A program made the translations under genes and the position numbers. A stretch of 64,000 nucleotides of DNA from Mytilus galloprovincialis (Eukaryota; Mollusca; Bivalvia; Mytilida; Mytilidae): assembly GCF_965363235.1 (NCBI RefSeq), contig NC_134845.1, positions 69,655,261 to 69,719,260 on the forward strand, written 5' to 3'. Below, one piece after another: positions 749 through 62,819 of this stretch (the first letter of the stretch is position 1; the number at the start of each line of letters is the position of its first letter). The notes under the pieces are model-generated. The model saw nothing but the letters and a program-made list of their open reading frames with translations, had not been told where the DNA came from and did no database searches.

Positions 749-913
749 CGGCAGGTCCTGTGCAGTCAGTTGCCTCAAGTGTGTATTTGGAATTGGGGTC
801 TCCGACTTTAAATGTTTCGAAATCTGCGTAGGAACAATTTCCTTCCAAATCTCCAAGCTCAACACGTAGACTATATCTACCGTTGCTTGTAATGATATGT
901 AGATTTTCATTCC
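749..913 (-). CDS. Exon 5: fibrinogen domain, beta-sheet part
   Basis: Translates [19 protein letters not shown], then [19 protein letters not shown] and a final CTGPAG, which matches the FBG block ending before the calcium-binding loop. The acceptor is TTTGATAG and the donor GCCG/GTGAGC is phase 1. The family normally has a further exon with the calcium site and two cysteines; it must lie to the left of base 1. Confidence 0.8.
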
Positions 914-3900
914 CTATCAAATAAAGATTTCATCGAATTAGTAACACATAATTAATGAGAGTTAACGGTAAGTAAATTTATACCAAAAAAATAACTTTAA
1001 CAAATTATATAAACAACCCAATAAACTTGATTTAAATAGAAGCATTTAATGTCATAGATAATAATACAAACTATCTCCAGTAGTCAATCAATTTAGTATT
1101 TATAAGAGTAAAGGACACTATAATTTAGTATTAACCCTGCGAATTGTTGATCCTGTCTGGTATGTATTAATGCATAAGTGCGTACAAGTCAATAGTTTTC
1201 AGCTTATAATAGATATAGGAAGATGTGGTGTTAGTGCCAATGAGACAACTCTCCATCCAAACAACAATTTGTAAAAGTAAACCATTATAGGTCAATATAC
1301 GGCCTTCAACACGGAACCTTGGCTCACACCGACCAACAAGCTATAAAGGGCCCAAAAATTACTAGTGTAAAACCATTCAAACTGGACAAACAACGGTTTA
1401 AGAATGAAAAACCAACGGTATAAAAATGAATAAAATAACATAAAGTATACAAACCGAGCCAGAATTCATGATTCAAATCTCCAAAACCATCTGTGTAATT
1501 TTTCCAGTTCCGGTAAAAGTCTAAGGAACCATCTAGTCTTTGCTGAAACACCTAAATTTACGCATATCACATTAAAGTGGAAGAAAATCGTATTGAAAGA
1601 CCGACCTTAATATAAGAACAAAACTCTAAAATAATTGTATAAGTTTATTTTATAGTTTTGTCATATTCTTTTATAAGCTACTAAGTTAATATAGTTTTTC
1701 AATTCTGTTTCATTCGGATTCTTTGAAAGAGGGACAAAAGACAACAGAGGGGCTATCAAACTCATATGTTGAATATTAACATAAAACGCCATGGCTAAAA
1801 AAGAAAAAAAAAGACAAAGACAAACAACAGTACTCAACATATATAGAAACCTAAATACTGATCAATATGCACCGCACCAAACACTGGGTATGATATCAGA
1901 ATCTTCGAAAGGATAGGCAGATCCTACTCATCATGTGGCATTCGTCGTGTTGCCCATGATTTTACAAACCCGATAATAAGTATAATTCCGTATACGGCCA
2001 CATTCAGGTATAGAACCACTAATTCAGGCCCGGTCGGAAAGAACATACGTAGTACATATTTAAAACAAAATAGTTCCTACGCATAACTGTATCTTTTTCA
2101 ATATGCGTCGCCGTCAACAAACATGGATTCTTCATAGAGGCAGTATAAATTTTCAAACAAAAAAGAGCAGTCATAGATATTAGTTATGTAAGCTCAATGC
2201 CAAAGTTTGCAACAACAAAAAAAATATGCATTTATCCATACAACTATGTTTACCCTCTTTGTATGTTAATTGAAAAACAAATATGAAAAAGGAAAAATTG
2301 CAGCTTGCTTTCAATTATCATAATGGATTCTAAGTCTACATTCCAAAATCAAATAATACTTTTAGATATGTAGATATATTGGCTCTAAATAATGATAATT
2401 TTCAACATGTACACTGGAGAGACTTATCCTGCTAAAAAAGATAAGACTAACAATGACAACTGATCTTTTTTATCTTGATATCTATATCTTTGACTTAATA
2501 TCAAAATTTACGATTAAAATTTTCCATTTTTTATGGTGACGTTCCCTTGTCATCTTCTACATGTTTTAATGTTCGTTCGTGTTTGTGACAACGTATTTGA
2601 TATTAAAAAAGGAATCTCTGTACCAAAAATTATTACACCAGAACTTTCAATATCACAAACCCGTCAAACCATTTAATAGAGTTTATCATCGACACAAGTA
2701 CATCATTCGTAAATATAAATCAACGTGCAGACATCTCATACGGTCGGATATTTCACATTTAATCTTGTGTGGTAATATTCTATATACTACTAATGCACAA
2801 AAATGACGTCATTCACCCCAAAAGGTAACTTAACCTTCAAAACAACTTTATTCAGAAGGGAAATAGTTACGATACAGCATTTTGTCATGTCAACAAAGTT
2901 GTTGGTATGATACGGGTTATGTTTGTCTTGTATATTTTAGATTAGATTTTTAGCGTGTTGACGCCACTTTTAAGCACCGCATTTGTGCTATTACTTGGCG
3001 GCCAGTATTTATTGTTGGAGGAAGCCGGAGTGCCCGGAGAAAACCATTACCTTCGATAGGAATACTGACTATCCTAGTCAATTAAGATTGCAGTCGAGTG
3101 TATCCGCACGAAACTCACAACCTCAGTGTTGAATGGCTAGTGATTACAGTAGTATCGTATATTTTATAATGGAATGATACTTAACCTATAATAGATGGAA
3201 TTGTGCTTGATTTGCATGTGATGTCAACATAATCTTTCAATCTGTGTAATTGAGGTCTTGAGCTGACATGTCAGTAACTGCTTTTGTTAGTCTTGTATTG
3301 TTTTTTTTTTTTATAGTTTGATTCATTTATACATGTTATATGTTTCGGAGGTTAGTGTATCGTCCATTTTTGCCGAACTAGTAAACATTTTTTTTTGTTT
3401 ATAGGCCAGATGATACCCTTATCCGGTTTTATTTTTTTCTTGCTGTGTTGAGGACACATTGGTAGCCTTGGTCTGTTCACTGCTCTGCTATAAATTTAAT
3501 GTCTCTTTGACCCTTTCTCTGTTTTTATTCTCAATTGAATGTATTAGCCACTGAGTGGAGTGAAGTGATGTCGTAATCATCGATTATAACCTTAGACGAA
3601 ACGCGCGACTTGCCTACTAAATTATAATCCTGCTACCTTTCATAACTATTTACACCACTGGGTCGATGCCACTTCTGGTGGACGTTTCGTCCCCGAGGGT
3701 ATCACCAGCCCAGTAGTCATCTCTTTGTTGTTGACATGAATATCAATTATATGGTCATTTTTATAAATTTCTTGTTACTAAACTTTGAATTTTTCAAAAA
3801 ACTAAGTATTTTCTTATCCCAGGAAAAGATTACCTTAGCCGTATTTTGCACAACTTTTTGGGATTTTGGATCCTCAATGCTCTTCAACTATGTACTTGCT

Positions 3901-6900
3901 TGGCTTAATAAATATTTTGATATGAGCGTCATTGGTGAGTCTTATGTAGACTAAAAAGTAAAATCACAAAAATCAGAGGAAAATCCAATCGGAAAGTCCA
4001 TAATTACATGGCAAAATCAAACAACAAAACACATCAAAAACGAATGGACAAGAACTGATTGAAACGCGCGTCTGACGTACTTAATTAATTTATAATCATT
4101 GTACTTTGATAACTATTAGGCACATCACTAATTTCAATTTGAATAATACTTGCCGTCCATCCGCCGTCAGCAATGTTCATTTCACAGTAAACATCGACAG
4201 AGTAATTAGAGATCGGAGAAATCGTGTAGACTCCTGAATCCGCACACATGGGAAGATCACTACAGTCCTTTGGATAAAGTGCTGAAACGTAAATTCAGTT
4301 TTGTAGGTATCAACAATATATGTATGTGTATATTAAATTCGTGAGAGTGATTATCTTTGTAGCTTTGTTTTTTATGGGAATTAATGAAAGATTCTGGTTT
4401 ATCATCATTCGAAGAAATTCAGACGATATAGTGAATAACTTCAAAGTATTGACACCTGAATAGTGGGTGTTTGTCTCTTGATGTTTACCACCAAGCACTC
4501 TTTGTCATATGATTAGGGACTTTCCAATTAAATTTTCCTCAGAGTTAGGTATTTATTTATTTTTTTTTTTGTATTTTTCGGTTTTCTTCGTAATTTCTGT
4601 AAATTCTGTATGGCTTTGTGTACATGTTATATGAGTTGTTCATATAACGATTCCGTATTTGTGCTGAATATTAAGTTCAAACAGTCTGATTATTTATTCA
4701 GGCGGTTTTGCAGTCAATGAAAGCCAGATGAAAAAGGATGATTGATTATAAGTTACTCAGTAATCATTGTTTACTTTTAGATGATGTCAATGGTCAACGT
4801 GAAATCATCCATTTAAATGTTTAATGGACGCCATCCGCGTGCAATTTACAATATTCGAATATCACAAATGCCAACGGATATGGTTCTAAGTATATTGTCT
4901 ATCAGATTAAGATTCTTGTTGTAAACGCTTGATAAATAGCAAATGATAGACAGACAAATATATACAATACAATGTATACTGTGATGTGAATGATTGATAT
5001 GCTTATATAAGACCTACTGATGGTACTTCCGTTGATGCTGAGGCTGGTGTTTGCACTCTGACCTACACCTAGGATGTTTGTAGCAAAACATGTGTAGTGT
5101 CCTTGGTCACACAAGGCAGCATTAATAATTGTAAGAGACGGGTTGGAAATAGAACTTCCGTTGATACCACTGGATGTTGAATTCAGTATTTTTATTTTAC
5201 CATAAACGATTCTGTACCAATAAACACTGGTAACAGTAAGGCTGGAGGCAACAGCACACTGTAGGGTCACTGATTCGCCAATACTAACAGAATAATTTAG
5301 TTTCTCGATATGAACAGATGGAATCGCACCTTCTACAAAGAAAAATAATGAAATTGACATCGTTTCTTTCAATTCTTCCCCATATTTAATAGTATTCAAC
5401 TTGAACCAGATTAAAACATATTATAAATATTAGTCATTTAAAATATTACTTACAAATAACCGTTACAAAATTATGCAAACAGTACTAATCTATCATAATA
5501 TTAGTGGAAGAAACTTTGAAAAACATAAAATTTATATTTGACATATTTATTTTAATGAGCAGAAATTGGAAATTTATTTGGTTACCTTAAACTGTTATTC
5601 AATTTTTCATGAATACTTACATTTGTTCTGGGAAAATTGATGTGGAGTTCAGTTAAACATGGTTTTAATCTTTGATCTAGTTTACAGTAACTTCGATTAA
5701 TCTTTGATCTAGTTCACAGCAACTTCGATTAATCTTAGATACTAGCAGGTGCATTGTATATTTTGCTTGATTAGTTTCTTAACGGTTATTTTTTGTCTCT
5801 GTGTATGCTTCGGGTTGATTTGATGATGTCCTTTCCAAAGCATTTTACCGTTTGCTCTTATTGTTTTACACCCCGTCCAAGTAAATAGTTGATCGCTCGG
5901 AAACCCGTCTGAACCTTCCGTATTATATATATATATGTGTCTGTCTGTCCAAAATCAGGACTGTCGTTCGTTACTGATTTTTTTCATAATTGTTTTTTCC
6001 TTTATTGTTTTAGCATGAATCAGGCGCTGGTTTTATCGTTTGAATTATTTAAAATGTTCACGTGTTGGTGCTGTGTATGTCTTACTGTACGGTATGGGTT
6101 TGTCTTTTGTTGGTTAAGACCGTGTCGCCACCTGTAATTGCTTTCATGTAAATGAGTTTAATGTGTTTACCTTGTTGATGGTTGTACCAATGAGAATTAT
6201 ACCACTTCTCTTAAGTTGTATATTTAGTTCAAACGTTAAGTTTTAGAATAGTTATCTTAAATCCGTAGGCGTTTAATTCTGATCACATTTTATGAAACGA
6301 CACACGCGAAATCGCTGAAATATCATATATGATTATGGCGTTTTGAGATTCTGCCGCTGTGTCTGTTCACTTTTTCAAAATCTTATTTGATGTTTAACGT
6401 TTGCAAAGGTTTTTTTTTATTTGGTTGATATTTCAGTACTTCGGTTTGCAATATCATTTGAAACTTTGTGTTGGCTTTTGTCGATTTTGATCAGATTTAA
6501 GTTCAGCCCGGTTAAATACGTAGTTATTTGTCATATAAGTGAGAGGTTTAGCTAGATATAAAACCAGGTTTAGTCCACCAATTTCTACATACGAAAATGC
6601 AGGTACCAATTAAGTCAAGAATATGACAGTTGTGTTTAAGATTTTATTTTGAAAATTGGTTTAAGGTCTTTCCATTTGAAATTTTCCTCAGAGTTCAGTT
6701 TTTTTTTATTATTTTACTTTTTGCATATCATATCATTTTTCATGATTAGTTTTAGTTGAAACATATTTATTTATAGTGGATTGGGAAACAAGTTTTGCAA
6801 CGGATATTAATCCCTTTCTACTTTGTGGTGCGAGTATTGCCTTGTAGCGGCAGTAGCTTGCTCTTTTTCGAAATCTACAAGGATTATCTCAGCTGATTCA

Positions 6901-7377
6901 AGAATTAAGTTTAGAATGACAAATACCGCTTATTTGAAACATGAACAATATTGTCAAGAATGTGGAATATTTCAATCTTTTTATGAATGCATTTATGTAT
7001 AATGATATTTGTTTGTTCATAAAAAAGAATAAAAAATGTACTGCCGTGGGTTATTAATGAATTCTTACTCCAATCTTACCAGATGGTTGTCGTATTAGCA
7101 TTCCATATTCTGATGTTTCTGTCTCAGGAAAAGAATCCGAGAACAATTTACATTCCCTTGTTATTTGATGGTAACTGGCTGAGTAACATGTTGGATTTTC
7201 TGAGCACAAACTAGCGCATATTATTTCTGATGACACTTTCTTTTCCGTCACCAAGTTATGTTCGTTCGTGGGTAGTGCAATCATATTCTCCTCTACTGTA
7301 AATGTTTGTTTCTTTACTTCAAGATCGAAACAACACACCAAACCTACAGTGCATATGAATGCAAACAACGTTTCCAT
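749..7377 (-). CDS. PAN-Ig-fibrinogen domain lectin (FREP-like), 5' part, 3' end beyond window
   Basis: Five exons on the minus strand (7377-7080, 5332-5027, 4281-4154, 1551-1455, 913-749) join in frame. The product begins with a signal peptide ([16 protein letters not shown]), then a PAN/apple domain, one Ig domain, and the first two thirds of a fibrinogen C-terminal domain. It is expected to be a secreted recognition lectin, as fibrinogen-related proteins (FREPs) are in molluscs. Intron phases are 1,1,0,1 and the last donor is phase 1; every junction restores the family consensus (for example GGWT followed by [16 protein letters not shown]). The Ig exon is symmetric (phase 1-1), the class expected for shuffled extracellular modules. 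The calcium-binding end of the FBG domain is not in the window, and bases 1-740 show no further FBG exon. Ig+FBG proteins are best known from gastropod FREPs; adding an N-terminal PAN domain is unusual. Missed small exons between those listed cannot be excluded. Confidence 0.8.
1206..1400 (-). repeat. Dispersed repeat R2
   Basis: The block 'gtgccaatgagacaactct' followed by 'cggccttcaacacgg' lies in the lectin intron next to exon 4. The same sequence recurs in the opposite orientation at about 8230-8400 and 8640-8800, and as a fragment at 59343-59390. It looks like a non-autonomous element of the type abundant in mussel genomes; its class was not determined. Confidence 0.6.
1455..1551 (-). CDS. 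Exon 4: fibrinogen domain, central part
   Basis: Translates [19 protein letters not shown] then [14 protein letters not shown], the conserved centre of fibrinogen-related domains. The acceptor is AATTTAG; the donor CTCG/GTTTGT is phase 1, and the glycine codon is completed by the next exon. An alternative acceptor nine bases downstream would remove VFQ and is less consistent with the family. Confidence 0.8.
1725..2015 (-). repeat. Dispersed repeat R4
   Basis: The sequence contains 'aacgccatggctaaaaa' and a block ending 'ggcattcgtcgtgttgcccatg'. It recurs at 55605-55740 in the same orientation and at about 59580-59770 in the opposite one. It is intronic here. No coding capacity is seen. Confidence 0.55.
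2579..2900 (+). mobile_element. Fragment of a reverse-transcriptase element (C-terminal part)
   Basis: A short open stretch reads [20 protein letters not shown], then [20 protein letters not shown]. This resembles the region after the YIDD motif in the element at 45.86-47.9 kb. DNA of the same kind recurs at 53530-53750. It is a fragment, not a gene, and sits in an intron of the minus-strand lectin gene. Confidence 0.5.
2925..3165 (-). mobile_element. tRNA-derived SINE (family B)
   Basis: On the minus strand it contains 'gtaatcactagccattcaac' then 'actgaggttg', nearly identical to the tRNA-like head at 17350-17430, with the same body ('ccgcatttgtgc' region). Two copies in opposite orientation plus a partial one at 49333-49437 define the family in this window. 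Confidence 0.65.
3240..3540 (+). repeat. Dispersed repeat R3, diverged copy
   Basis: Carries the landmarks of R3: a 'tagtcttgtattg' start, a 'gccagatgatacc' middle and a 'gtctctttgacc...ttctcaatt' end. Better copies are at 52015-52460, 53930-54370 and 62820-63065, and an inverted one at 36118-36250. Confidence 0.5.
3595..3960 (+). repeat. Dispersed repeat R8 with 'acgaaacgcgcg' ends
   Basis: The segment starts 'gacgaaacgcgcgacttgcc' and ends 'gagtcttatgtagac'. Diverged relatives occur at 4050-4130, 42848-42925 (exactly at the breakpoint of the cGAS-like duplication) and 47735-47875. The short ORF inside it is not a gene. Confidence 0.55.
3968..4050 (-). repeat. Dispersed repeat R1 fragment
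   Basis: Minus-strand copy of the R1 block ('ggaaagtccataattacatg' then 'gcaaaatcaaac'). Other R1 copies are at 190-335, 4505-4565, 6555-6720, 35575-35760, 39850-39960, 48025-48130, 54690-54790, 56490-56670 and 59050-59110. Confidence 0.6.
4154..4281 (-). CDS. Exon 3: start of fibrinogen domain (GC donor)
   Basis: The exon encodes [19 protein letters not shown], then [15 protein letters not shown], the N-terminal A subdomain of a fibrinogen-related domain with its two usual cysteines. The acceptor is TTACGTTTCAG. The next family-consistent exon begins GTG TTT CAG in phase 0, which requires this exon to end at ACG. The intron then starts GCAAGT, the classic GC-AG donor. A GT donor four bases further (GCAA/GTATTA) would end in phase 1 and does not fit the next exon. 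Confidence 0.75.
5027..5332 (-). CDS. Exon 2: immunoglobulin domain
   Basis: This 306-nt exon encodes one Ig domain: GESVTLQC, the core tryptophan in VYWYR, and the DxGxYxC signature in [10 protein letters not shown]. The acceptor is TTTCTTTGTAG and the donor is GGAA/GTACCA, both phase 1. The open frame continues past the donor into a hydrophobic segment and stops at 4902, so a read-through product is possible. The match to I-set or V-set was not resolved. Confidence 0.8.
5671..5740. repeat. 36-bp unit duplicated in tandem
   Basis: The unit 'aatctttgatctagtt(t/c)aca' plus 'g(t/c)aacttcgatt' is present twice in a row with two substitutions. It lies in the intron between the PAN and Ig exons. 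Confidence 0.6.
6555..6720 (+). repeat. Dispersed repeat R1
   Basis: Longer copy of R1 beginning 'ataaaaccaggtttagtcca' and ending 'cctcagagttcag'. The same order of blocks is seen at 35575-35760 and 56490-56670. Confidence 0.65.
6770..6895 (-). mobile_element. 3' part of tRNA-derived SINE (family A)
   Basis: Matches in inverted orientation the tail of the element at 19415-19745: 'tggattgggaaacaagtttt' then 'gcaacggatattaatccctt' and the 'ttgccttgtagcggcagtag' block. The tRNA-like head is missing, so the copy is 5'-truncated. Confidence 0.65.
7080..7377 (-). CDS. Exon 1: signal peptide and PAN/apple domain
   Basis: The ATG at 7377 starts a hydrophobic leader of about 16 residues followed by roughly 80 residues with the PAN cysteine pattern ([18 protein letters not shown], then RECKLF). 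The exon ends at a strong donor (CATCTG/GTAAGA) in phase 1, which joins the Ig exon to give RQPSEGAIPSV. PAN domains bind proteins or carbohydrates; the specific ligand here is unknown. A weak TATA-like TATTTATA lies about 70 bases upstream on the minus strand. Confidence 0.75.
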
Positions 7378-8229: not shown

Positions 8230-8400
8230 TTGGTTCAATTAAATTTTGTAACTTTCTTTTGGACTTAATGTCTTCTACCTGAAATTTTGTAATTTATAGT
8301 GAACGTGTTGAAGGTCGTACAATGGTTTACTTTTATTAATTGTTATTTGGATGGAGAGTTGTCTAATTGGCGCTCACACCACATCTTCCTATATCTTTCA
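8230..8400 (+). repeat. Dispersed repeat R2
   Basis: Plus-strand end of R2 ('gtgttgaaggtcgtacaatg' then 'gatggagagttgtct'). A second partial copy follows at 8640-8800. Between 7460 and 12340 no exon was recognised; ORFs at 8565-8869 are inside this repeat. Confidence 0.6.
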
Positions 8401-8639: not shown

Positions 8640-8800
8640 GATATTTTAGAATTTCACAATGTTTACACTTTTTTCTGTTTGAATGGTTTTACACTAGTAA
8701 TTTTTTGGGCCAATTACAGCTTGCAGTTTTGTGTGAGCCAAGGCTCTGTGTTGAAGGCTGTACCTTGTATAATGGTTTACTTTTATATACCCGTCAATGG
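8640..8800 (+). repeat. Dispersed repeat R2, second copy
   Basis: Contains 'ttgaatggttttacactagt', 'gtgtgagccaaggctctgtg' and 'ttgaaggctgtac', which mirror the inverted copy at 1206-1400. Confidence 0.6.
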
Positions 8801-16800: not shown

Positions 16801-19800
16801 TAAACTTAAATCCCTTTTGATTGAATTCCACAAATCCACAAAATTGTCATTTTTATCTTCCCATGTTTGCAATTTTTTTTATACAAAGGGTTAAGACAGG
16901 GTTATATTGCAGCAGAATTAGAGAATAGTCATTATAGATGATAGTGGTCATAGATAGGTGGTAGATAAATTCAAAGTCAAACTTTTATTTTTTTAGTAAT
17001 AGTTATTTTATACATCAGAGTTATGCAAACCATTAAAAAAGGTAAACTTTCCCTTCATGTACATTTATTTTGTCTGCTTGTAAGAAATCGAATGGGATTA
17101 ATTGTTCTTCTTTGTTGATTATATTTGTTAATCCTTGCTTTTAACTTTCAAACTGATGACTTTTCAGTGAGTAGGAGTTGTAGTACACCAGTATTTGGAA
17201 GTTACAGTACACCAAGAACTTATACTAAGATGAGTCATTCTGCTGATAGTACACCTGTCATGCCTGTATATAATAACAAACCTGTCATCAGGAAATCATT
17301 GGCAACGTCTTATGGTAAGAATTGTGTCATATTATACAGTACTCCAAAGGGTCCTCAGTGGTCAAGTGGTATAAGTAGTTACTAATGTAATCACTAGCCA
17401 GTCAACACTGAGGTTGTTAGTTCGAACCCTGCACAAACGGGTGCACTCGACTCCAATAATAATTTAATAGGATTGTCAGTTTTCATATTGAAAGTCAGTG
17501 GCTTCTCTAGCACTCAGACTTTCTCCACCAATAAAAACCGGCCTCTATAAAACAGCACAAAAACAGTGCTTAAAAATGGTGTTAAAACACCCAAAAATCA
17601 AATTAAATATACAGTACTCTCAAAAGGGGGAGTAAATACAATGTTGCAATGACATACCATGGAAAATGGAACAAATAACAGTCCACAAATTGTCTGACAA
17701 AATTTATCTAAGCTTGACCTCATTGTCATAGATCTTTCAAAATGTTTAGTGTCCATGATGCTTTCAGTAAAACCTTTATTTTTAGGACTTTTCAACGTTG
17801 AATCAATGGTCAGTAAAGAAGGCGAGACATTTTAGATTGTGCACTCTTATCTTGATTATCTGAAAGCTTGATACACAAGTAATCAAAAACTATTTTATTA
17901 AAGTGCATTTGAATTGTGTTTTGAATTTTGTTTTCATTATCAATTTTAGGAAGTAATATTGGAATGGGTAAAAATGTTGATACTGGAACATTTACCAGAC
18001 CTAAACGAACCAGACCTCAAGTAAATGATATGCCACCAGATCATGCAAAGCTTCCTGAAGAATCAGACAGTACAGATAGTAAAAATCATCCAAATGTTTC
18101 AGATATAGAAAATTTAGCAAAATTACAAGAAGAGAGTAAGTCTGCATTGACTCTGCAAATATTATTTGAGTCTAAACTAATAATTTGTTGGATATGAACA
18201 AACAATTTTGAATGGAAAGTATGTTTAAAAATAACCTGTTGTGTACATGTATCATATTATTAGAACTGCTTGCTGCACACATGCATATATCATAGTTTTA
18301 TTAGATACATGTTGCTGACAATATATGTACAACGATTCATACTTAAATGAAACAAAAAACAAAAGCAATTTATGAATGATAAAATCCAAAAACAGTTGTT
18401 GACACTTGTATCAAACTCTCTTGGCCTAAAATACTGCAAAAGTCACAAATTTAAAACCTTGTTCCTGAAATTAAAGCACAGTATTTTGCATTAATTTAAT
18501 CGTTTTTAGTCCAGCTGTGATGAGTTGAAATTTTGTTAGACACAAGTATACCATGTTTAAAGCTTAGAGTGTTCAAACAAAGCTGTTATTATATAAAAAT
18601 AAGGAGATTTGAATGTAAGCAATAAAAGGCAACTATCTTCAACAATGAAAAACCCATATCGTATGGGTGGTTATAAAAGGCAACTATCTTCAACAATGAA
18701 AAACCCATATCGTATGGGTGGTTATAAAAGGCAACTATCTTCAACAATGAAAAACCCATATCGTATGGGTGGTTATAAAAGGCAACTATCTTCAACAATG
18801 AAAAACCCATAACGTATGGGTGGTTATAAAAGGCAACTATCTTCAACAATGAAAAACCCATATCGTATGGGTGGTTATAAAAGGCAACTATCTTCAACAA
18901 TGAAAAACCCATATCGTATGGGTGGTTATAAAAGGCAACTATCTTCAACAATGAAAAACCCATATCGTATGGGTGGTTATAAAAGGCAACTATCTTCAAC
19001 AATGAAAAACCCATATCGTATGGGTGGTTATAAAAGGCAACTATCTTCAACAATGAAAAACCCATAACGTATGGGTGGCTATAAAAGGCAACTATCTTCA
19101 ACAATGAAAAACCCATAACGTATGAGTGGCTATAAAAGTCCCAAACATGAAAAATATGAAACCATTCAATTGAGAAAACTGACTGCTTGATTTACAACAA
19201 AACAATTTGTGAAACAAATATAACAGACATGAACCAATGACAACCTATACAATGTTGTATTTTTTGTTCCAAAGTCAGACTTGAAAGATACAAAGCTTTA
19301 CTCATGAATAGTTAAATTCAACTCTTTATTCAATGAACAAAAAGTAAACATGCAGAGACCGAAATATAGGAATAAAATATATGTAACAACAAAAGGACCT
19401 TTTACACTTAAAAGAGAGCCTTGGTGTAATGGTTAGTGCATCGGACTACTAACATAAAGGTTCCTGGTTCGATTCCCGTTTGGGATGAAAATTTCAGGAA
19501 CTCAATTTTCGGCTCTCCCTTGACAACATCTGCGAGTATGGTCTTGAGGAAACGATGATAGCTCGTGGGAAGGGGACGATAAGTGGCTGACCCGTGTTAA
19601 GAAAGAGCCATATCTCTTGCACGTTAAAGACATCCTTGTAGATTTCAAAAAAGAGTAGGCTAATGCTGCTACAAGGCAGCACTCGCACCCGCAAAGTGGA
19701 AAGGGATTAATATAAGTTGCAAAACTTGTTTCCCAATCCACTATAGATAAATATGTTTAAACTAAAAAACTTAAAAAATGTAAAAAGTAAAGTCCTGTCT

Positions 19801-39062: not shown

Positions 39063-40152
39063 GTAAGTCAAAAGTTTATATTTTGTAATTTTTATTTATG
39101 AACCTTGGTCATATTATGTCTTTAAAAACGCAATGATTAAATGTAAAAAAGGTCAAACAGGATACTAATAATTTTAGAAGTATGCTTTTGTATGTAAATG
39201 TCATTTATATAAAATCAAAATAATCAGAAAATTGACTTTCAACAAATTCTGACAATCCTTTGTTTATGTTCCACATTTTCCATGTTTTAACAACTTTCAG
39301 TTTTGAATTCGTGATTTTCCCGTAAAATGTTTATTTTCTTACGTCATGATTCAATGACCCATGTACCCCGTTTGACTTCGGGTAAATTTGTAAAAAGCAT
39401 ACGCAAAGAGATTATGATTGGAACAACAAAAAACTAAACATGACGTTGCCGAACAGCTGACATACAATATATTCGTATTCTACCACGGCATGAACTTAAA
39501 CTGTTTGAAGAAGCTTATATAAGAATTTACATAACTATGAGGACATTTGGAAGTGCTCAACTCTCAAATATCCTTTTGAAATAAAAGTTGAACGTATTGC
39601 AATGGATATAACATTTGATAAAAGTAAATCCGACCACAACTTCGTTTAAAATTTTATTTATTATGAAGTTTGGTTCTTTTCTTTTTTTGCGACAAAGTTG
39701 TAAACAAAATAAAACAAAATCAACCCAATCAATTTATTGTATTGACGTCACACAGTTAAAATTGAAACGAACACATATTTGAATTTTAGTTGAATATATA
39801 AACAGTATTAGCTGGTGTAAACAGACATTTATTTTGTGTTATCATTTTGCCAGAACTACAAGGAAAATTCAAAACGGAAAGTTTTTTTTATCTAATGGCA
39901 AAATAAAAAGCTCAAACACATAAAAAAAAACGGATGGAAAACGACTGTTAAATGCCCGACTTTGTAACGACGTAGTCATCTTTTGTTTGAAATCTCACAA
40001 AATATTTTGTTTTTCAAGGTCCAATATTTTGGATTAAATAAATTTGTAATTACTTATAACGTTTAATCAATCGATATTAAATGCATGTGGAACAAAACTT
40101 TATTGATTCTTAATAATTTACTTTAAATCTTGGTACCTTATTTTCCTTTTAG

Positions 40153-41780
40153 ATGACACAACACGGAGCCTGTCAATATCAGTGTATCAGTATCTATGTC
40201 AAAACATTGTTGGATATGAGGATCATGTTAAAACACTTCGAATGACAAGTAACGTGAGAGATAATATAACAAATGTTAAAGACAGTGTAGTAATCACAAG
40301 TGGTAGTTTTGGTGAAGGCATAGAAATGGAAGGTAGTGATTTAGATATAATGCTAGTATTAAACTATATGGAAGTACACGAAGACATTTCATCAGTAGTT
40401 TATGATGAACATAAGATATACTTTTCCATGAATACAGAGGACACTAAACCCGGATATAGCTATTTATTTCTAGTGTATTCTAATTATTTAAACATTTTCG
40501 AAACGTGCTTGGACATTGGAGGAAAACTATTTATTTCAAATGTATTGTTTAAACAGAGATTTATTGAAGATCTGTATTCGGTCATTCATGGTCCATGCAT
40601 AACAGATAGGAAAGGAATAATGGATTTTGCATTCTGTTTACATAATAAATCATGGGTAAACCCAGCAAACCAGTGGGTAACAAGGCCAACCAATTCATGG
40701 CCTGCTGCTGAAGTTAAACGAGATATTATAGACCACGGAGTACTCTTCGTGCCGATCGGTGTTAAAGGATCAAATAACGAGGAAATAGAATGGCGTTTGT
40801 CTTTCTCAGTTGGCGAAAAACTGCTTATTTATACGTTTAGTCATACCCAATTGTTGTGCTATGTCTTGTTGAAAATTCTACTGAAAGATGTAATAAATAT
40901 TTATTCTAAAGCTTTACTCTGTTCCTATTTCCTGAAAACTATTATCTTTTGGGTTTCTGAAGAATTACAACCATCAGTTTGGACACCAGAACATTTGATA
41001 CCATGTTTTATGAAATGTTTTAGGAGGCTGATTTACTGTGTAAACTATTCAGTGTGTCCGCATTACTTTATTCCAGAAAATAATTTGTTTGAAAATAAGA
41101 TAGAAGGAATAGAACAACAAGTGTTGTTAAACCATCTCTATACATTACACAGCTATGACTGGCGTTGCATCTTTTTTTCATCTCAGATACATCAATTTGA
41201 AATTTCCCAAATACATCACATGTCTTCTCAATCATACGTACTTAGTTTTAAACGTATCATACAATCACGACGTTTCAATTCGTTATCACCTCAGTTTTTA
41301 CTGCAATATAATTACACCGAATTGAGAAGAAACTATATGCGGTCAATCTATCAATTACTTCGTTGTCAATCTTCTAGCATCCGACGAATTTATCTATTCT
41401 ATATGTCATTTCTTTGTTCCAATGTGTATGAATTTGCAGAATTTATACGTATCGGTAGTCTTAGCAACAAGTGCATGTATGGTGCATACAAAACCTGGCT
41501 GAGTTACCAACTACGGAATATTCATCACGACGCTATGTCAGGTTGGCTGAATTTGGCTTCATTTTTCTACATAACACACCAGTATGAGATAGCCTTGAAA
41601 ATAATTGGTTATGCATTGTCAAAGTGTACATTGGAAAAGTTGTGCGGTTATGAAGATTTATCAGATATTCATATGGAACTGCTGAGAATGAAAACCTTCC
41701 GAAAAAAGGGAAATATAAGCATACTTAAAATTCTACATTTGGATGCATGCATTTTTCAAGAACAGCGATTTTACCGATAG
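40153..41780 (+). CDS. Mab-21/cGAS-like nucleotidyltransferase receptor, copy 1, frameshifted near the 3' end
   Basis: Joined to the start exon this gives 545 aa. The nucleotidyltransferase signature is clear: GS at residues 54-55 in SGSFGEGIEMEGSDLDIMLV, with paired aspartates at 66 and 68 in the position of the cGAS metal-binding acids. A Mab-21-type segment follows (EIEWRLSFSVGEKLLIYTF), then a helical C-terminal half. The third catalytic acid was not identified, so second-messenger synthesis is not assured. The frame is lost near 41755 by one base compared with copy 2: it reads to a stop at 41780 while the normal continuation stays open from 41747 to 42184 in the next frame. The family (cGLRs) is expanded in bivalves and senses foreign nucleic acid or other signals. 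Confidence 0.85.
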
Positions 41781-42184
41781 AGGTGCAACTAGATGAAGAT
41801 GTATTGAGAAATAGGGTACCGCCACTTTTCTATGCACATTTTTTACGCATTTTATGCCATTATCGACAAAAAAATATAATACACGGTTTGGAATGCCTAT
41901 TTAATTTGCATGATGTTCTGGGTTCAAAGTATTACACACATGTAGCAAACACCATCAAAGCTTATTCCCTCAATTGTGTTGGCGTAGCTGGACAGTTATT
42001 TGGTATGACTGATATGGCTAAACAAGCATTCGATGTATCGATCAAAATATCCCCTGAACCTGAGAATATTGCGCTCAAGAGACTGTCACAAACAATTGGG
42101 TGCATACCAAATATAACAAGAAGAAGGGAGAGAAATCGTACAGTGGCGTTTACTCGAAAGCACTTCGTTTATACGCCGTTTTAA
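41747..42184 (+). pseudogene. cGAS-like copy 1: out-of-frame 3' continuation
   Basis: ILPIEVQLDEDVLRNRVPPL through VAFTRKHFVYTPF aligns with the in-frame end of copy 2. It is about 140 residues of helical (TPR-like) repeat sequence that copy 1 can no longer translate from its main frame. A single-base assembly error would explain it equally well. Confidence 0.7.
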
Positions 42185-42847
42185 ATCTGAGTTAACTCAA
42201 AAATTATTGGAGACATAAAAAGTAAACGGATACTCACGTTTTACGAAAAAAGTGCGTTTTTCAATTTTGTAAATATTAAACGGGCGTGTATAATTAATTT
42301 CGCGTTTACTTCTGAGTTAACGTAAAAATGCGTGTCTTTTAATTTTGTGAAAAGTAACTGAAGGTTTACTTATAGTAGTAAACGCGCGTTAACGTAGAGA
42401 GGTATCGTATTTTGGACAGACCTACCTATCATATTACATGACTAGTTACGTAAAAATGTCTACATGTAGATTTTCGACAAATATTAAGAAGCATTATCTA
42501 CGAGATATAATGAAAAAAATAGAATATAAATATGATTTATTTTTGTTCAATCATCAATGAAATTGAAATGATAATTCGCTTTTAGCAGCCAGTATGCTTA
42601 ACTTAAGATAAGAAGCATCGATGATAAATGATTCACTTGCAAGTGAATAATTTGACCTCACTGAATCTGTATTTATGTGACCTTTAATTATATGCTTTAG
42701 CTATAATGAATTACGTTCATTAGGGCAGTTCATTTATTAAAAGGATAGATATGTCAACATTGAAATTGAATCAAGAGTAAAGTGACTTATTCAATCAACA
42801 AAAACTTATTTTTAAACATGTTGTACAGGTTAAATAAACCCATCATA

Positions 42848-42925
42848 GATACCAGGCTTGAAATTTTATATTTACGCCAGACGCTCGTTTCGTCTACAAA
42901 AGACTCATCAGTGATTCTTGAATAA
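42848..42925 (-). repeat. Repeat R8 fragment at the duplication breakpoint
   Basis: 'tacgccagacgctcgtttcg' then 'tctacaaaagactcatcag' is R8 sequence (compare 3595). It ends exactly where homology between copies 1 and 2 begins, so it may have mediated or capped the rearrangement. Confidence 0.6.
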
Positions 42926-42928
42926 AAC

Positions 42929-44236
42929 ATGTTAGAAATTCTACTGAAAGATGTTATAAATATTTATTGCAAAGATGTACTCTGTTCATATTTCCTGAAA
43001 ACTGTTATGTTTTGGGTTTCTGAGGAATTACACCCATCAGTTTGGACACAAGAACATTTGATACCATGTTTTATGAAATGCTTCAGGAGGCTGATTTACT
43101 GTGTAAACTACGCAGTGTGTCCGCATTACTTTATTCCAGAAAATAACTTGTTTGAAAATAAGATAGAAGGAATAGAACAACAAGTGTTGTTAAACCATCT
43201 CTATACATTACACAGCTATGACTGGCGTTGCATCTTTTTTTCATCTCAGATACATCAACTTGAAGTTTTCCAAATACAACACATGTCTTCTCAATCATAC
43301 GTACTTAGTTTTAAACGTATCATACAATCACAACGTTTCAATTCTTTATCACCTCAGTTTTTACTGCAACATAATTACGCCGGATTTAGAAGAAAATATA
43401 AGCGGTCAATCTATCAATTACTTCGTTGTCAATCATCTAGAATCCGACGAATTTATCTATTCCATATGTCATTTCTTTGTTCACTTGTGTATGAATTTGC
43501 AGAATTTATACGTATCAGTAGTCTTAGCAACAAGTGCATGTATGGTGCATACAAAACCTGGCTGAGTTATCAACTACGGAATATTCATCACGACGCTATG
43601 TCCGGTTGGCTGAATTTGGCTTCATTTTTCTACATAACAAATCAGTATGACATAGCCCTGAAAATAATTGTTTATGCATTGTCAAAGTGTACATTGGAAA
43701 AGTTGTGCGGGATTGAAGATTTATCAGATACCCATATCGAACTGCTGAGAATGAAAACCTTCCGAAAACATGGAAATATAAGCAATCTTAAAATTCTACA
43801 TTTGCATGAATGCTATTTTAACGAAGACTGTATTTTACCGATAGAGGTGCAACTAGACGAAGATGAAATAAGCAATATAGTACCGCCACTTTTCTATGCA
43901 CATTTTTTACGCATATTATGCCATTATCGCCAAAAAAATATAATGGACGGTTTGGAATGCCTATTTGATTTGAAAAATGTTATGTGTTCAAAGTATTACA
44001 AACATAATGCACACACCATCGGAGCTTGCTCACTCAATTGTTTTGGCGTAGCTCTGCAGTTATTGGATATGAGTGATATGGCTAAACAAGTTTTCAATGC
44101 ATCGATCATACTATCCCCTGAACCTGAGAATACTGCGTTCAAAAGACTGTCACAAACAATTGGGTGCATACCAAGTATAACAAGAAGAAGGACGAGAAAT
44201 CGTAAAGTGGCGATTACACGCATACTATTCGTTTAA
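42929..44236 (+). pseudogene. cGAS-like copy 2: tandem, 5'-truncated duplicate
   Basis: A 435-codon open frame starting at residue LEILLKDVINIY aligns with copy 1 from about 40885 to its end, with roughly nine of ten residues the same. The nucleotidyltransferase core (GS motif and catalytic acids) is absent; no homologous exon is found between the copies. The 3' end, ending RKVAITRILFV, is open and in frame. Homology continues about 650 bases past the stop, to about 44885. It may be a dead duplicate, or a truncated protein if a promoter exists; the ATG at 42929 has no family support. Confidence 0.75.
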
Positions 44237-45859: not shown

Positions 45860-47900
45860 TCTTAACATCATTTATTAAGGACGAGATTTTACAAAATCAA
45901 AAATCTGTCCTTTCTTTTGGTATCAACATCAAAGAAAACAGAGAAAATTTACCATCATTATATTGGATACCAAAACTACACAAAATCCATATGAAGAACG
46001 ATACATAGCTGGATCGTCAAAATCTTCGACTAAACATCTTTCTTAAATACTGACTACTATTCTTTCTACAGTTAAAGATGGGCTTCAAAAATATTGTGAT
46101 GACATATATTCTACCAGTGATGTTAACCAGATGTGGATTCTCAAAAATTCGAAAGATCTACTGCGTAATCTTCGATCACAATCGTTGCAATTTTGCAGCA
46201 ACATAAAGACTTTTGATTTTTCGACCCTTTACACTACTATTCCCCATGCTGAGTTGAAAGATCGACTCCACCATCTCATTAAACAGAGCTATTTCTATAA
46301 AAACGGGAATTGTATATACACATCTCTTGTTTTGGGTTACAACAATTCATATTTTGTGAAGAAACCACACTGAATCTACCAGAAATTATACTGAAGATGT
46401 TATTATCAAAATGCTGGACTTTTTGATCGACAATATATTTGTTGAGTTTAAAGGATTCATATTTCAACAGACAATCAGTATTCCAATTGGTACTAATTGT
46501 GCACCCCTACTAGCCGATTTGTTTTTGTACTCGTATGAAGCAGAATTCATTAAAACCCTTCTAAACGGCAAACAGAAAAATCACCTTGCGAAATTCTTTA
46601 ATTTCACTTTCCGATATATTGATGATGTCCTATCACTGAATAACCCATATTTCAGCCAATACTTGCATCTTATATATCTCAGTGAACTTGAAATTAAGGA
46701 TACTACTGGTACTAGAAGGACTGCTTCATACCTTGATCTTTTCCTCAATATCGACACAGATGGGAGACTTCACACGAAAATCTATGATAAACGGGACGAT
46801 TTCAACTTCCCAATTATCAATTCCCATTTCTCAGCAGTAACATACCCTCTGCCCCTTCGTTTGGTGTTTACATATCTCAATAAATACGTTATTCTCGTGC
46901 ATGTTCACACTTTACGGACTTCATATAAGGAGTGTGCTCCTAGCGCAGAAACTGCTCCAACAAAGTTATGAGGAGGACAGATTAAAAATGACACTCCGTA
47001 CATTTTACGGACACCATCACGAATTAGTTGATCCATACGATGTATATTTGTCCAAACTAACTATGGACATTTTTACCACGTGTTAGATTGTGGTTTGTCA
47101 CTACGTCGTCTGATCTTTTTATTACCGAACGTGACTTATTCCCAAATGTGACTGTTTTGCTGAGTGTGAATTCATTGCTTTAAGACGTGGCACGGTACTT
47201 TTCCATCCCAAATTAATTTGTTGGGTGTTGATGTTGTGTTTGTTGTTGTCATCGGATTTTGTCAAATGTCTTAACGTTTGTAGTTGTAAATCGTATTTTT
47301 GTCTGTTGTATTCGTGTATTGTGTTGGAATAACTACTCATTCAGTTCATTTGGCAGATTTAATTTTGGATCAACGAAATTTACACGATATATTTTGTTTG
47401 CAGTTTGATTAGAAGAAACACCCACAACGCTAGATAATACAATTAATATTATAATTTTCACTGTTATTAATATAAGTTAGATAAGTCATACAAATCGAAC
47501 CTTGAATTGCATCCAAATTATTTCTTAATTTTCGGAACACGTATTAGAAATTGAAATGTGATGTCACTTTGGACATTGCATTGACTATAGCTAACAGGGC
47601 TATGATTTTGTAAAGTATTTGTTTTTATTATATTGTAGTCACCACTTAATTTTAATCATGTATCTCTATAGTCTTTTTATAATATTTACTGTTTGCAAAA
47701 CTATGTATTATTCTTGATAATAATGATGTTTTTGTCCCAGGCGGATAATCATTACCTCACAACTTTTTGGAATTTTTAGTCCTCGGCGATCTTCAACTTT
47801 GTAGATGTTATGGTTTTCAAACTTTTTGCATCTGAGCATAGTTTTGTGTGGACGTAACGCGAGTCTAGCGTATAAAAATATTTTTTAACCTGTTACCTTT
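45860..47900 (+). mobile_element. Degraded reverse-transcriptase element (Penelope-like or related)
   Basis: Blocks of one reverse transcriptase are spread over several frames: LPSLYWIPKLHK, SFDFSTLYTTIPHAELKD-like, SIPIGTNCAPLLADLFLYSY, FRYIDDVLSLN (catalytic YIDD), then SYLDLFLNIDTDGRLHTKIY and YDKRDDFNFP. The order and the TNCAPLLADL and YIDD motifs are typical of a widespread invertebrate family I associate with Penelope-like elements; no GIY-YIG endonuclease was seen, so the class is uncertain. It is broken in several places. An R8 copy (47735-47875) lies at its 3' side. Fragments are at 2579-2900 and 53530-53750. Confidence 0.75.
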
Positions 47901-59770: not shown

Positions 59771-60223
59771 TCTATTTTTTCAAAGAGTACTGATCAATTT
59801 TCAGAAAATACTTAATAGACCATTCTGAAACCTAGACCAAGGAACGAATTTGTACGAGAATGAGAAAAACAAAAGGTAACGCGTTTTGCAGTGAAAAGGA
59901 ATAATTTCGTTTCAAAATATTTTTTATGGTGATTTGTTACAGTATATACCCGCGTAAACTGCTTCCTTGATGATTAAATGTATCACTCGCTATGCAAATC
60001 TATTTTCATTAAAATCGCGTATTAAGTATGTTATGATTAGTTTCATCATTCCATGGGTTTTAAAGAAAACGGAAAACGTAGACGAATGTTCGAGACGTTA
60101 ATGATATATATTAAAATGTTTTTAATACGTGATAACAGACAAGGATTTGTACGTGAAATTTGCAACATTTTCGTAATTATTTATTTTACTTATGTACATA
60201 TCTGAATAATCCTAAATACTGAC

Positions 60224-60984
60224 CTCAAACCTCTTTTCAAAGAAGATGTCGAAAATCAGAAGCCCAATGCTAACCACAATACCAAGTGAAAGCAATATAA
60301 ATAGACTCCCGATTTTATCGATAGATATCCCATCAGTCCTAAAAAAAAGTCCTGCCTGGAACTTCTTGTCCTCAAAGGAAGTGACGTACTTGATGTAATC
60401 GTCATCAAAATCGGTGTCACATTGAGATTTGTACCATTTACCAATCAGCTCTTCAAGAATACCATTTTCTTTCAGTGATACCAAGGCAACATCTAAATCA
60501 TGACACGCTTTTGATTCCAGTCCACATGCAAAGGAGTAAGACCCACGATGTTTTGAGTGGTGTACGAGTACCAGGTCACACGGAGGTTTTCCAGACTCTG
60601 TACGTGCATAAAGTTCCTCCGTGATAAAAACATAGTCACCTTCACTATCACGAACCCGTTTCACCCCCTCAGCTACATTCTTTGGCATCTGATCTTTAGA
60701 TTTCTTTAATTGTTTTCCAATTGCTTCGTCTGTCTTGTCTTTGGCCTTTAGTGTGAAATATCGATATGTCATGCTGTTATAAGGAACTCCGTATTCGACT
60801 TCAGATTGGAGGGGCAAATCTTCGAACGAATGGATTGGTGTTTCTAGGAGTTCATCGTCTCCACTACGGAAGACGACAGCAAGGGAAGTTATGTATGAGG
60901 CAAAGATCAGGATAACAAATATACACCAAAAACATGTCAACATCTTTGCAGAACGAGATGTACAGGTTGATGGACTAAAACTGC
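60224..60984 (-). CDS. Ionotropic glutamate receptor, exon with M3, S2 and M4
   Basis: A 761-nt exon (acceptor ATTTTTGCAG, phase 1; donor TTTGAG/GTCAGT, phase 0) encodes about 253 residues. In order: the M3 helix with the SYTANLAAFL-type motif as SYITSLAVVF (gating region), the S2 lobe of the glutamate-binding domain (IHSFEDLP, EYGVPYNSMTYRYFTL, GDYVFITEE with the family's ligand-contact acidic position, CDLVLV...), the KENGILEELIGKWY block near the end of S2 with the usual cysteine, and M4 (SLFILLSLGIVVSIGLLIFD). The amino-terminal domain, S1, M1 and pore loop M2 are missing; they should be on exons to the right, none of which I could see up to 64000. A cytoplasmic tail exon is expected to the left and was not found. 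Subclass (AMPA/kainate-like, NMDA-like or a lophotrochozoan class) was not resolved. Confidence 0.9.
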
Positions 60985-62819
60985 CTGCAAAAATATATAA
61001 ACAAAGAAGAAGAAAATAAGTCAGATTTTGTATTTCTCGGACTATCTTTATCTTTATGCAACAGAAACAATACAAATGAATGTTCTATGGAAAGTATTTT
61101 AATAGATTTCGGAATGTCTAGGAATATCTTTATCTTTAAATGCAACAGAAACTAGCAATTATTGTTCTCTGCAAAGTATTGTAGCCAAAAGAACAAGGCA
61201 AAAGTAGCATACATGTGTTCAAAGGTCATAAATCGATTGAGAGAAAACACATCCGGGCTACAAACTAAAGCCGTAGTTCAGCATATATAGTCACCTATCG
61301 CCTACATTGACCAAAGCCTAAACGTAATCGTTCATCTTTTCTCGTTTTCGTTTTCCAATATGAAGACGAAAAATTAATCGTATCTTCTGATGGATATTCT
61401 GCAAAAAGAATGTTTCTAATTCATGGCCATTCATTTTGCGGACAGTGTTTTATCACAAACAAATTTCGGGTGATAGAATATATACCAAGTACGTACGGAA
61501 TTGCCGATTATGATGCAAATCAATGCATTATAATCTGCATTAAATCGGTTGAGAGAAAACTCATCCGGGTTACAAACTAAAGCCGTAGTTCAAAATAGTT
61601 ACTTCTAGCCTACATTGGTCCAAAGTCATTTTCTGGTTAGCCCGTTCGCCCGTCTGTCCAGCTTCATGTTAAAGTTAATGGTCGAAATTAATGCCAAATT
61701 AAAGAGTTTTTACACCATTTGCACGGTCCAATGGACATATAATATGAAAGTGTGAATGGGGCATCTGTGTTTTATGGACACATTTTGTTTGCGTAAACCA
61801 GCAGGGAGTTTACGCAGTATATATTGGACGATGTCCGTAGTCTTTCGGAACACCGTATGTTATTCGGAATACATATGTTCTTTCTTGGGCCACCTTATAT
61901 ATATACATGCAGAATGGCTTATTATTTGACCTGTCGAATGAGCATTAGCTTCTTAAAGTTGCTTTAGAGATATGCTACATATGATGCGAAATTTAGTATG
62001 ACGCAAGCTACTTTGATAAGCATTATAATACTTCCTCGAACGCGTTTACAAGCTACTAATATCTACCTTACATATATGTGTAATTATCTTAATTAGAGCA
62101 TAGAGCAATTATATTCTATGATTAGAGTCAAACGTTGAAACCCTCGAAATGAAACCAGCCGTGTTTAGAATGTTTGATACAAGAAAAGATTTCATGTAAG
62201 CATGTAAAATCTATATCAGCATTTCATGTAAGATTCCGTTTCTAGGGAAGATGTACATGATGTACAAAAGCAGGCTATTTCATTTTTGTTTTTATACTGA
62301 TATCAAAAGGAAGTCTTTATAGAACTTTATTAAAATTTTACGTCTAGGAAAGACCAATGACGTATGTAAAATCCAATACACGTCCTTGAATAAATGTTAA
62401 AAATCACCAGGATTTTCCCCCAAAAAAAATGTTTATTAAAAATAACGGTCAAATTAATTATGAAATGAAAAGCGACATTCGGAAAATATCTTCAAAGCGA
62501 GCTCAATGTTTTAAGAAGTGTTTGTTTTTAACAAAATAGGTTTGTCACCTAGTTGCCAATGCTTACTACCCTAAGCATTTGCATTTTTACTAAAATCTAA
62601 CTTTTATCGAAAACAAAAACACCAGCCCCTTAGAATAGAACATCCAGTGGGTGACTTAACATGTTGTCCTTCGGAGGAGAGAGCAAAATGTTCTTTATAA
62701 CAAGAATATTTCAGTCTACATTGAACAGAAGCTACTTCAAGCAAACAATCAATGTCAGTTTGTAATTCTTATACTGCGGACTCGTATGTTTTCATGGGTA
62801 CTAATTTTCTTGACTGAGA
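60985..62819. other. Upstream intron of the glutamate receptor, no exon seen
   Basis: No M1/M2 exon was recognised on the minus strand. A block 'attgagagaaaacacatccg' to 'actaaagccgtagttca' at about 61235-61280 is repeated at 61550-61595 ('ttgagagaaaactcatccgg'), a local direct duplication with its flank 'agcctacattgg(t/c)c'. Confidence 0.45.

Follow-up and report, generated by a model that had tools for sequence, protein, structure and literature searches.

A PAN-Ig-fibrinogen gene model in the mussel Mytilus galloprovincialis and its place in a PAN-fibrinogen family

The window analyzed here is a 64,000-nucleotide stretch of the Mytilus galloprovincialis genome (contig NC_134845.1, positions 69,655,261 to 69,719,260), and near its left end the minus strand carries five exons of a gene predicted to encode a protein with PAN, immunoglobulin (Ig) and fibrinogen (FBG) domains. 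Exon 1 (7377-7080) opens with an ATG, encodes a signal-peptide-like start and the PAN domain, and runs to a GT donor in phase 1. Exon 2 (5332-5027) holds a single I-set Ig domain and is symmetric, with phase 1 at both ends. The N-terminal part of the FBG domain is encoded by exon 3 (4281-4154), which is entered in phase 1 and left in phase 0 through a GC donor rather than the GT found at the same place in four paralogs (L052-L055). The second and third parts lie on exon 4 (1551-1455) and exon 5 (913-749), each of which ends in phase 1. The original prediction had pointed to a last FBG exon left of base 1, and a phase-matched exon 6 was located 696-934 bases beyond that edge (C8:69654327-69654565), where it closes the frame. 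The six-exon splice, as predicted from splice sites, frame and phases in the genomic sequence, comprises 1233 nt and encodes 410 amino acids with a single terminal stop. The introns after exons 1, 2, 4 and 5 are in phase 1, as had been claimed for the PAN, Ig and FBG junctions; that claim did not include the phase-0 intron with its GC donor after exon 3. An alternative donor for exon 2, nine bases further on (exon end at 5018), is likewise in frame, and the end at 5027 agrees with that of the four related Ig exons whose flanks were read. The gene model is non-random: three domain matches lie on one strand and in order, and their phases are compatible. Because exon 2 is symmetric, its skipping would give an in-frame PAN-FBG form, and the predicted product lacking this exon is indeed an open frame.

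The frame that continues past the donor of the Ig exon (4902-5026, minus strand) encodes a hydrophobic stretch before it meets a stop; a membrane form produced by intron retention is conceivable in principle, and the stretch may also be a matter of chance in AT-rich DNA. Repeats that appear alike by eye lie in opposite orientation in intron 4 (1200-1460) and upstream of the gene (8310-8400 and 8690-8780), an arrangement that could favor ectopic recombination. Elsewhere in the window, two neighboring and similar open frames on the plus strand (40107-44236) match Mab-21_C in Pfam (E values of 1e-15 and 5e-16), and the first of them also contains a nucleotidyltransferase domain (2e-5) with a GSFGEG...DLDIML motif. 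The pair possibly represents tandem genes of the cGAS-like-receptor type. An exon on the minus strand at 60212-61084 (Pfam Lig_chan, 4e-9) encodes part of a ligand-gated ion channel, of the ionotropic glutamate receptor type. A 200-codon frame in which a unit of about 17 residues is tandemly repeated (18589-19191, minus strand), with one Pfam match just under the cut-off, is probably a DNA tandem repeat and not a gene. The frame at 46360-46968 (plus strand) resembles reverse-transcriptase-type repeats by eye, as do frames in loci L061 and L062; Pfam found nothing in the window frame.

The domain content of the model was evaluated by a Pfam search of the spliced five-exon product, which returned Fibrinogen_C (6e-40), Ig_3 (5e-11), I-set (6e-8) and PAN_1 (6e-7), all above their curated cut-offs; PAN_4 fell below its own. 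Exon 1 by itself matches PAN_1 with an E value of 1e-7. The order is a hydrophobic N-terminus, judged by eye to be signal-peptide-like, followed by PAN, one Ig and FBG, so the architecture initially read from five in-frame exons of a bivalve-like genome stands, and the source is indeed a mussel. In keeping with this, C4 of the assembly carries an open frame of 770 codons composed of decapeptide repeats of the mussel foot protein 1 kind. Four PAN cysteines (C54, C58, C64 and C76) are invariant across 27 aligned PAN exons of the genome, an alignment composed of the gene under study, 25 of 29 other loci and locus L001. About six residues separate the longest Ig match, which extends to residue 198, from the FBG match, which begins at residue 205. 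The 410-residue product contains eight N-glycosylation sequons, and four cysteines (C174, C214, C303 and C327) are additional to the pairs typical of PAN, Ig and FBG domains, with the signal-peptide region excluded from this count.

The closest solved relatives of the FBG domain are the ficolins, ficolin-1 being the best (E 1e-52), and the aspartates of its Ca2+ loop align with those of ficolin-1. At two positions that in ficolin and tachylectin form part of the acetyl-binding pocket, the mussel domain has Phe in place of His and Val in place of an aromatic residue. These substitutions make canonical binding of N-acetyl sugars doubtful, and the FBG ligand is probably not a classical N-acetyl group. 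Ficolins have a collagen stalk; the mussel gene shares the FBG domain and the Ca2+-loop aspartates with ficolins and tachylectin-5A but has no such stalk, and carries PAN and Ig in addition.

In order to place the gene among its relatives, profile searches were carried out on one Mytilus assembly (1.385 Gb, 331 contigs). PAN exons of the exon 1 type gave at least 132 matches at E<=1, with 150 of 224 candidates scored. When these 132 PAN matches were compared with 149 of the 150 FBG matches listed, 15 of the 132, including the gene under study, were followed on their own strand by an FBG match no more than 15 kb away; in five the FBG match lay upstream, and in none on the opposite strand. By way of comparison, random placement yielded a mean of 0.1 and a maximum of 2 downstream pairs in 500 draws. 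Some other PAN-FBG genes are clustered, with six pairs at C9:16.56-16.68 Mb. A separate search of the 20 kb to the left of the window (L010) returned no PAN, Ig or FBG match.

Thirty PAN loci were read, including the one in the window, and each has a hydrophobic start and PAN in one stretch, interrupted in L036 by an in-frame stop. Among the 29 others, 14 lead to FBG and two to a C-type lectin. Nothing was recognized within 5 kb past PAN in five loci (L059, L060, L061, L063 and L072), and the remaining eight (L026, L028, L030, L033, L034, L035, L036 and L041) were read to 1.5 kb. One of the C-type lectins is identified by Pfam (L032/L064, Lectin_C 8e-13), the same type of PAN exon lying upstream of the lectin domain at 741-1055 of L064 (minus strand); the other (L020/L058) was recognized by eye, and Pfam matched nothing there.

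The Ig is where the mussel gene departs from its family. Neither a profile search nor an Ig motif scan detected an Ig in the stretch that joins PAN to the start of FBG in any of 19 other PAN-FBG genes (L001, L016, L017, L039, L040, L052-L057, L062 and L065-L071). Fourteen of these derive from the top-30 PAN list; of the five that do not, L001 was reached through the FBG search, L068 and L069 stand lower in the PAN list, and in L066 and L070 the PAN is more distantly related. The start of FBG was placed by eye in L052, L054-L056, L065, L067 and L071, and by profile in the others. In three of the 19 (L052, L054 and L067) a Thr/Ser-rich linker (35-41% T+S) shares the exon with the FBG start. The slot between PAN and FBG thus contains nothing, a Thr/Ser-rich linker or, in the gene under study alone among those read, an Ig exon. 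The PAN of L001 scores 17.5 bits against a Pfam cut-off of 21.4 and reaches an E value of 1e-16 against a profile built from the PAN of this genome; here PAN and FBG occupy a single exon, without FBG introns. L001 also supplies the best other FBG among the matches listed (47% over 123 residues), and single FBG exons elsewhere in the genome reach 73% over about 33 residues, again among the matches listed.

Intron positions tie the gene to this family. Like its relatives, it has a hydrophobic start and PAN in a first exon that ends in phase 1, a donor phase read by eye in L053, L055 and L016. In all ten paralogs read by eye (L053, L055, L056, L057, L062, L066, L068, L069, L070 and L071), the first FBG exon has a phase-1 acceptor. 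Within FBG, the introns of the mussel gene follow WT (phase 0), WLG (phase 1) and GxAG (phase 1). The WT intron (phase 0) occurs at the same place in paralogs (donor in L052-L055, acceptor in L053-L055), the WLG intron has its donor in L052-L055 and its acceptor in L053 and L054, and the GxAG intron was seen as a donor alone, in L053 and L054; L052 shows no clear AG acceptor ahead of its second FBG exon. The PAN-FBG genes L053, L055-L057, L062, L068 and L069 therefore share with the gene under study the PAN first exon, the phase-1 FBG acceptor and, where read, the internal FBG intron positions, but are without an Ig. The original prediction had treated PAN as an addition to a fibrinogen-related Ig protein. 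The recurrence of PAN-FBG in this genome reverses that reading: the Ig is the addition. A survey of open-licence literature, by title and the start of the abstract, yielded no paper that we recognized as dealing with bivalve PAN-FBG genes, and the family, variable linkers included, may be insufficiently described for bivalves.

A source for the Ig exon was sought in the same assembly. The best 150 of 862 candidates are 37-53% identical to exon 2, and the listed matches fall mostly in tandem arrays (C3:54.9-55.05 Mb, C14:57-67 Mb, C1:129.4-129.7 Mb and C6:76 Mb). Four array Ig exons from three loci on C3 and C14 are 1-1 in phase and end GGA A|GT, as exon 2 does. In 16 of 17 comparisons of exon 2 with array Ig exons over at least 98 codons, pS is 0.59-0.73 and pN 0.31-0.36; the seventeenth near-full-length comparison gives 0.86 and 0.41, and two partial ones give pS/pN of 0.79/0.39 and 0.69/0.33, ratios that also include selection on the array side. 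By these values the divergence is old, with constraint acting on one side or both. The nearest relatives of the Ig in the PDB are Igs of titin and contactin-1. A comparison by eye of the Ig and FBG lists showed every other listed Ig match to be more than 100 kb from the FBG matches listed. In our reading, exon 2 goes back to an I-set exon of the array type that was copied in the distant past; the highest identity among the matches listed, 53%, is too low to single out a donor gene. Our guess that the array Igs are hemicentin-like was helped by a passage in an excerpt of PMC13093298.

Some observations on exon 2 could also fit an intronic copy that is never spliced, in which case the product would be a PAN-FBG protein like those of the paralogs. 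Ig exons are abundant in the genome (862 first-look candidates), the frame is kept when exon 2 is skipped, and in a substitution-only simulation 9-23% of neutrally drifting copies stay free of stops. Against this, 102 codons are open between two splice sites in the right phase, the hallmark residues of an Ig are retained (by eye), pN is about half of a near-saturated pS relative to the array exons, with array-side selection included, and the exon end is identical to that of four array Ig exons. We regard a stray exon as quite improbable. It is more improbable still that two genes have been merged in the model, one encoding a PAN-Ig protein and a separate one downstream encoding an FBG protein. 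The hydrophobic read-through past the exon 2 donor, with its stop at about 4902, makes a PAN-Ig protein by intron retention conceivable, but the first FBG exon is entered in phase 1 and has no start of its own, no signal-peptide-like frame was recognized among the listed open frames of at least 50 amino acids between Ig and FBG, and the pairing of PAN with FBG recurs through the family.

The origin of FREPs, the Ig-bearing fibrinogen-related proteins of gastropods, is reportedly the subject of a 2010 paper by Gorbushin, going by its title. The Biomphalaria glabrata genome is described in an excerpt of PMC5440852 as holding four one-Ig FREP genes, one of them with an N-terminal PAN_AP domain, and the later survey (PMC7588048, in excerpt) confirms this gene as FREP1, Bg179. 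The snail protein resembles the mussel one in its N-terminal PAN, single Ig and C-terminal FBG. A signal peptide is reported for the snail protein; the mussel model has a hydrophobic start that looks like one by eye. It differs in that its Ig adjoins an interceding region (ICR), which in FREPs spans 14-133 amino acids or more according to the same excerpt of PMC7588048 and which is absent from the mussel gene. The Ig is described as IgSF1 in FREP1, and in mussel it matches I-set and resembles the genome's own arrays. The mussel gene is thus a FREP by the loose definition of an Ig with a C-terminal FBG and not by one that includes an ICR of at least 14 amino acids. PAN is also mentioned for four oyster genes and some Lottia fibrinogen-related proteins (FReDs) in that excerpt, and the Apple-like domain in C-type lectin genes of B. 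pfeifferi (excerpt of PMC10075465) indicates that snails can pair PAN with other lectin heads. According to the portion of a 2022 lectin survey available (PMC8878817), bona fide FREPs occur in heterobranch gastropods alone and other molluscs have a simpler form of signal peptide and FBG, often with a coiled coil; a 2018 review, also in excerpt, extends the FREP name to bivalve proteins (PMC5877582). Single-domain bivalve FReDs, the usual layout outside Heterobranchia in the PMC8878817 excerpt, share the secreted ficolin-type FBG with the mussel gene but lack both PAN and Ig. The claim that an Ig is unusual in a bivalve fibrinogen-related protein agrees with this. That the layout is non-standard stands in part: it is unexpected in a bivalve, but already present in B. 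glabrata FREP1 (excerpts of PMC5440852 and PMC7588048). A known common family of the same architecture did not emerge from these sources, which gave one gene in one snail. The PAN-Ig-FBG order is therefore known once, and the bivalve example with an Ig is unexpected without being a new kind; if FREPs are restricted to heterobranchs as PMC8878817 holds in the portion available, it is a modest novelty and probably convergent.

The snail gene permits a different history, in which the PAN-Ig-FBG order dates far back in molluscs and was inherited by both FREP1 and the gene under study, the mussel PAN-FBG genes have lost the Ig, and the gastropod FREPs derive from a PAN-Ig-FBG gene by loss of PAN. 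The identical order of PAN, one Ig and FBG in FREP1/Bg179, as excerpted in PMC5440852 and PMC7588048, is what such descent would leave, and a 1-1 exon is lost as easily as it is gained. The gene also has no close copy among the matches listed, where the second-ranked PAN is 37% and the second Ig 52% identical, as might be expected of an old single-copy gene. Yet none of the 19 PAN-FBG genes read has kept an Ig, so a single gain is simpler; the mussel gene has about six residues where the excerpt of PMC7588048 gives FREPs an ICR; and the Ig resembles the mussel's own Ig arrays, in a comparison made within the mussel genome alone. We consider common descent unlikely. Similarly doubtful, in our view, is the broader proposal that bivalves have preserved in this gene the ancestral PAN-Ig-FBG form that gave rise to heterobranch FREPs. 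Were it true, the Ig-FBG module would be older than the split between bivalves and gastropods and not a heterobranch invention, and the middle of the PAN chassis would vary (none, mucin-like stalk or Ig), as may its head (FBG or C-type lectin).

The account that we favor, and hold to be likely, is a gain of one Ig by exon shuffling in a secreted mussel protein of the PAN-FBG family, probably an immune or mucosal lectin. An old copy of a symmetric 1-1 exon of the array type would have been inserted into the phase-1 intron between PAN and FBG; with the FBG acceptor in phase 1 and the Ig exon 1-1, the Ig can be gained or skipped without damage to the frame. By analogy with the families concerned, FBG would bind a Ca2+-dependent ligand and PAN would make a protein or glycan contact. 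The Ig may act as a rigid spacer or a second contact at the point that in paralogs is empty or filled by a Thr/Ser-rich stalk, and the protein may serve in innate immunity or in the recognition of particles at mucosal surfaces. The phase-1 slot of the PAN-FBG family would offer a concrete route by which Ig-FBG proteins can arise through exon shuffling, and the mussel gene provides a named test case for a single versus a double origin of the PAN-Ig-FBG architecture.
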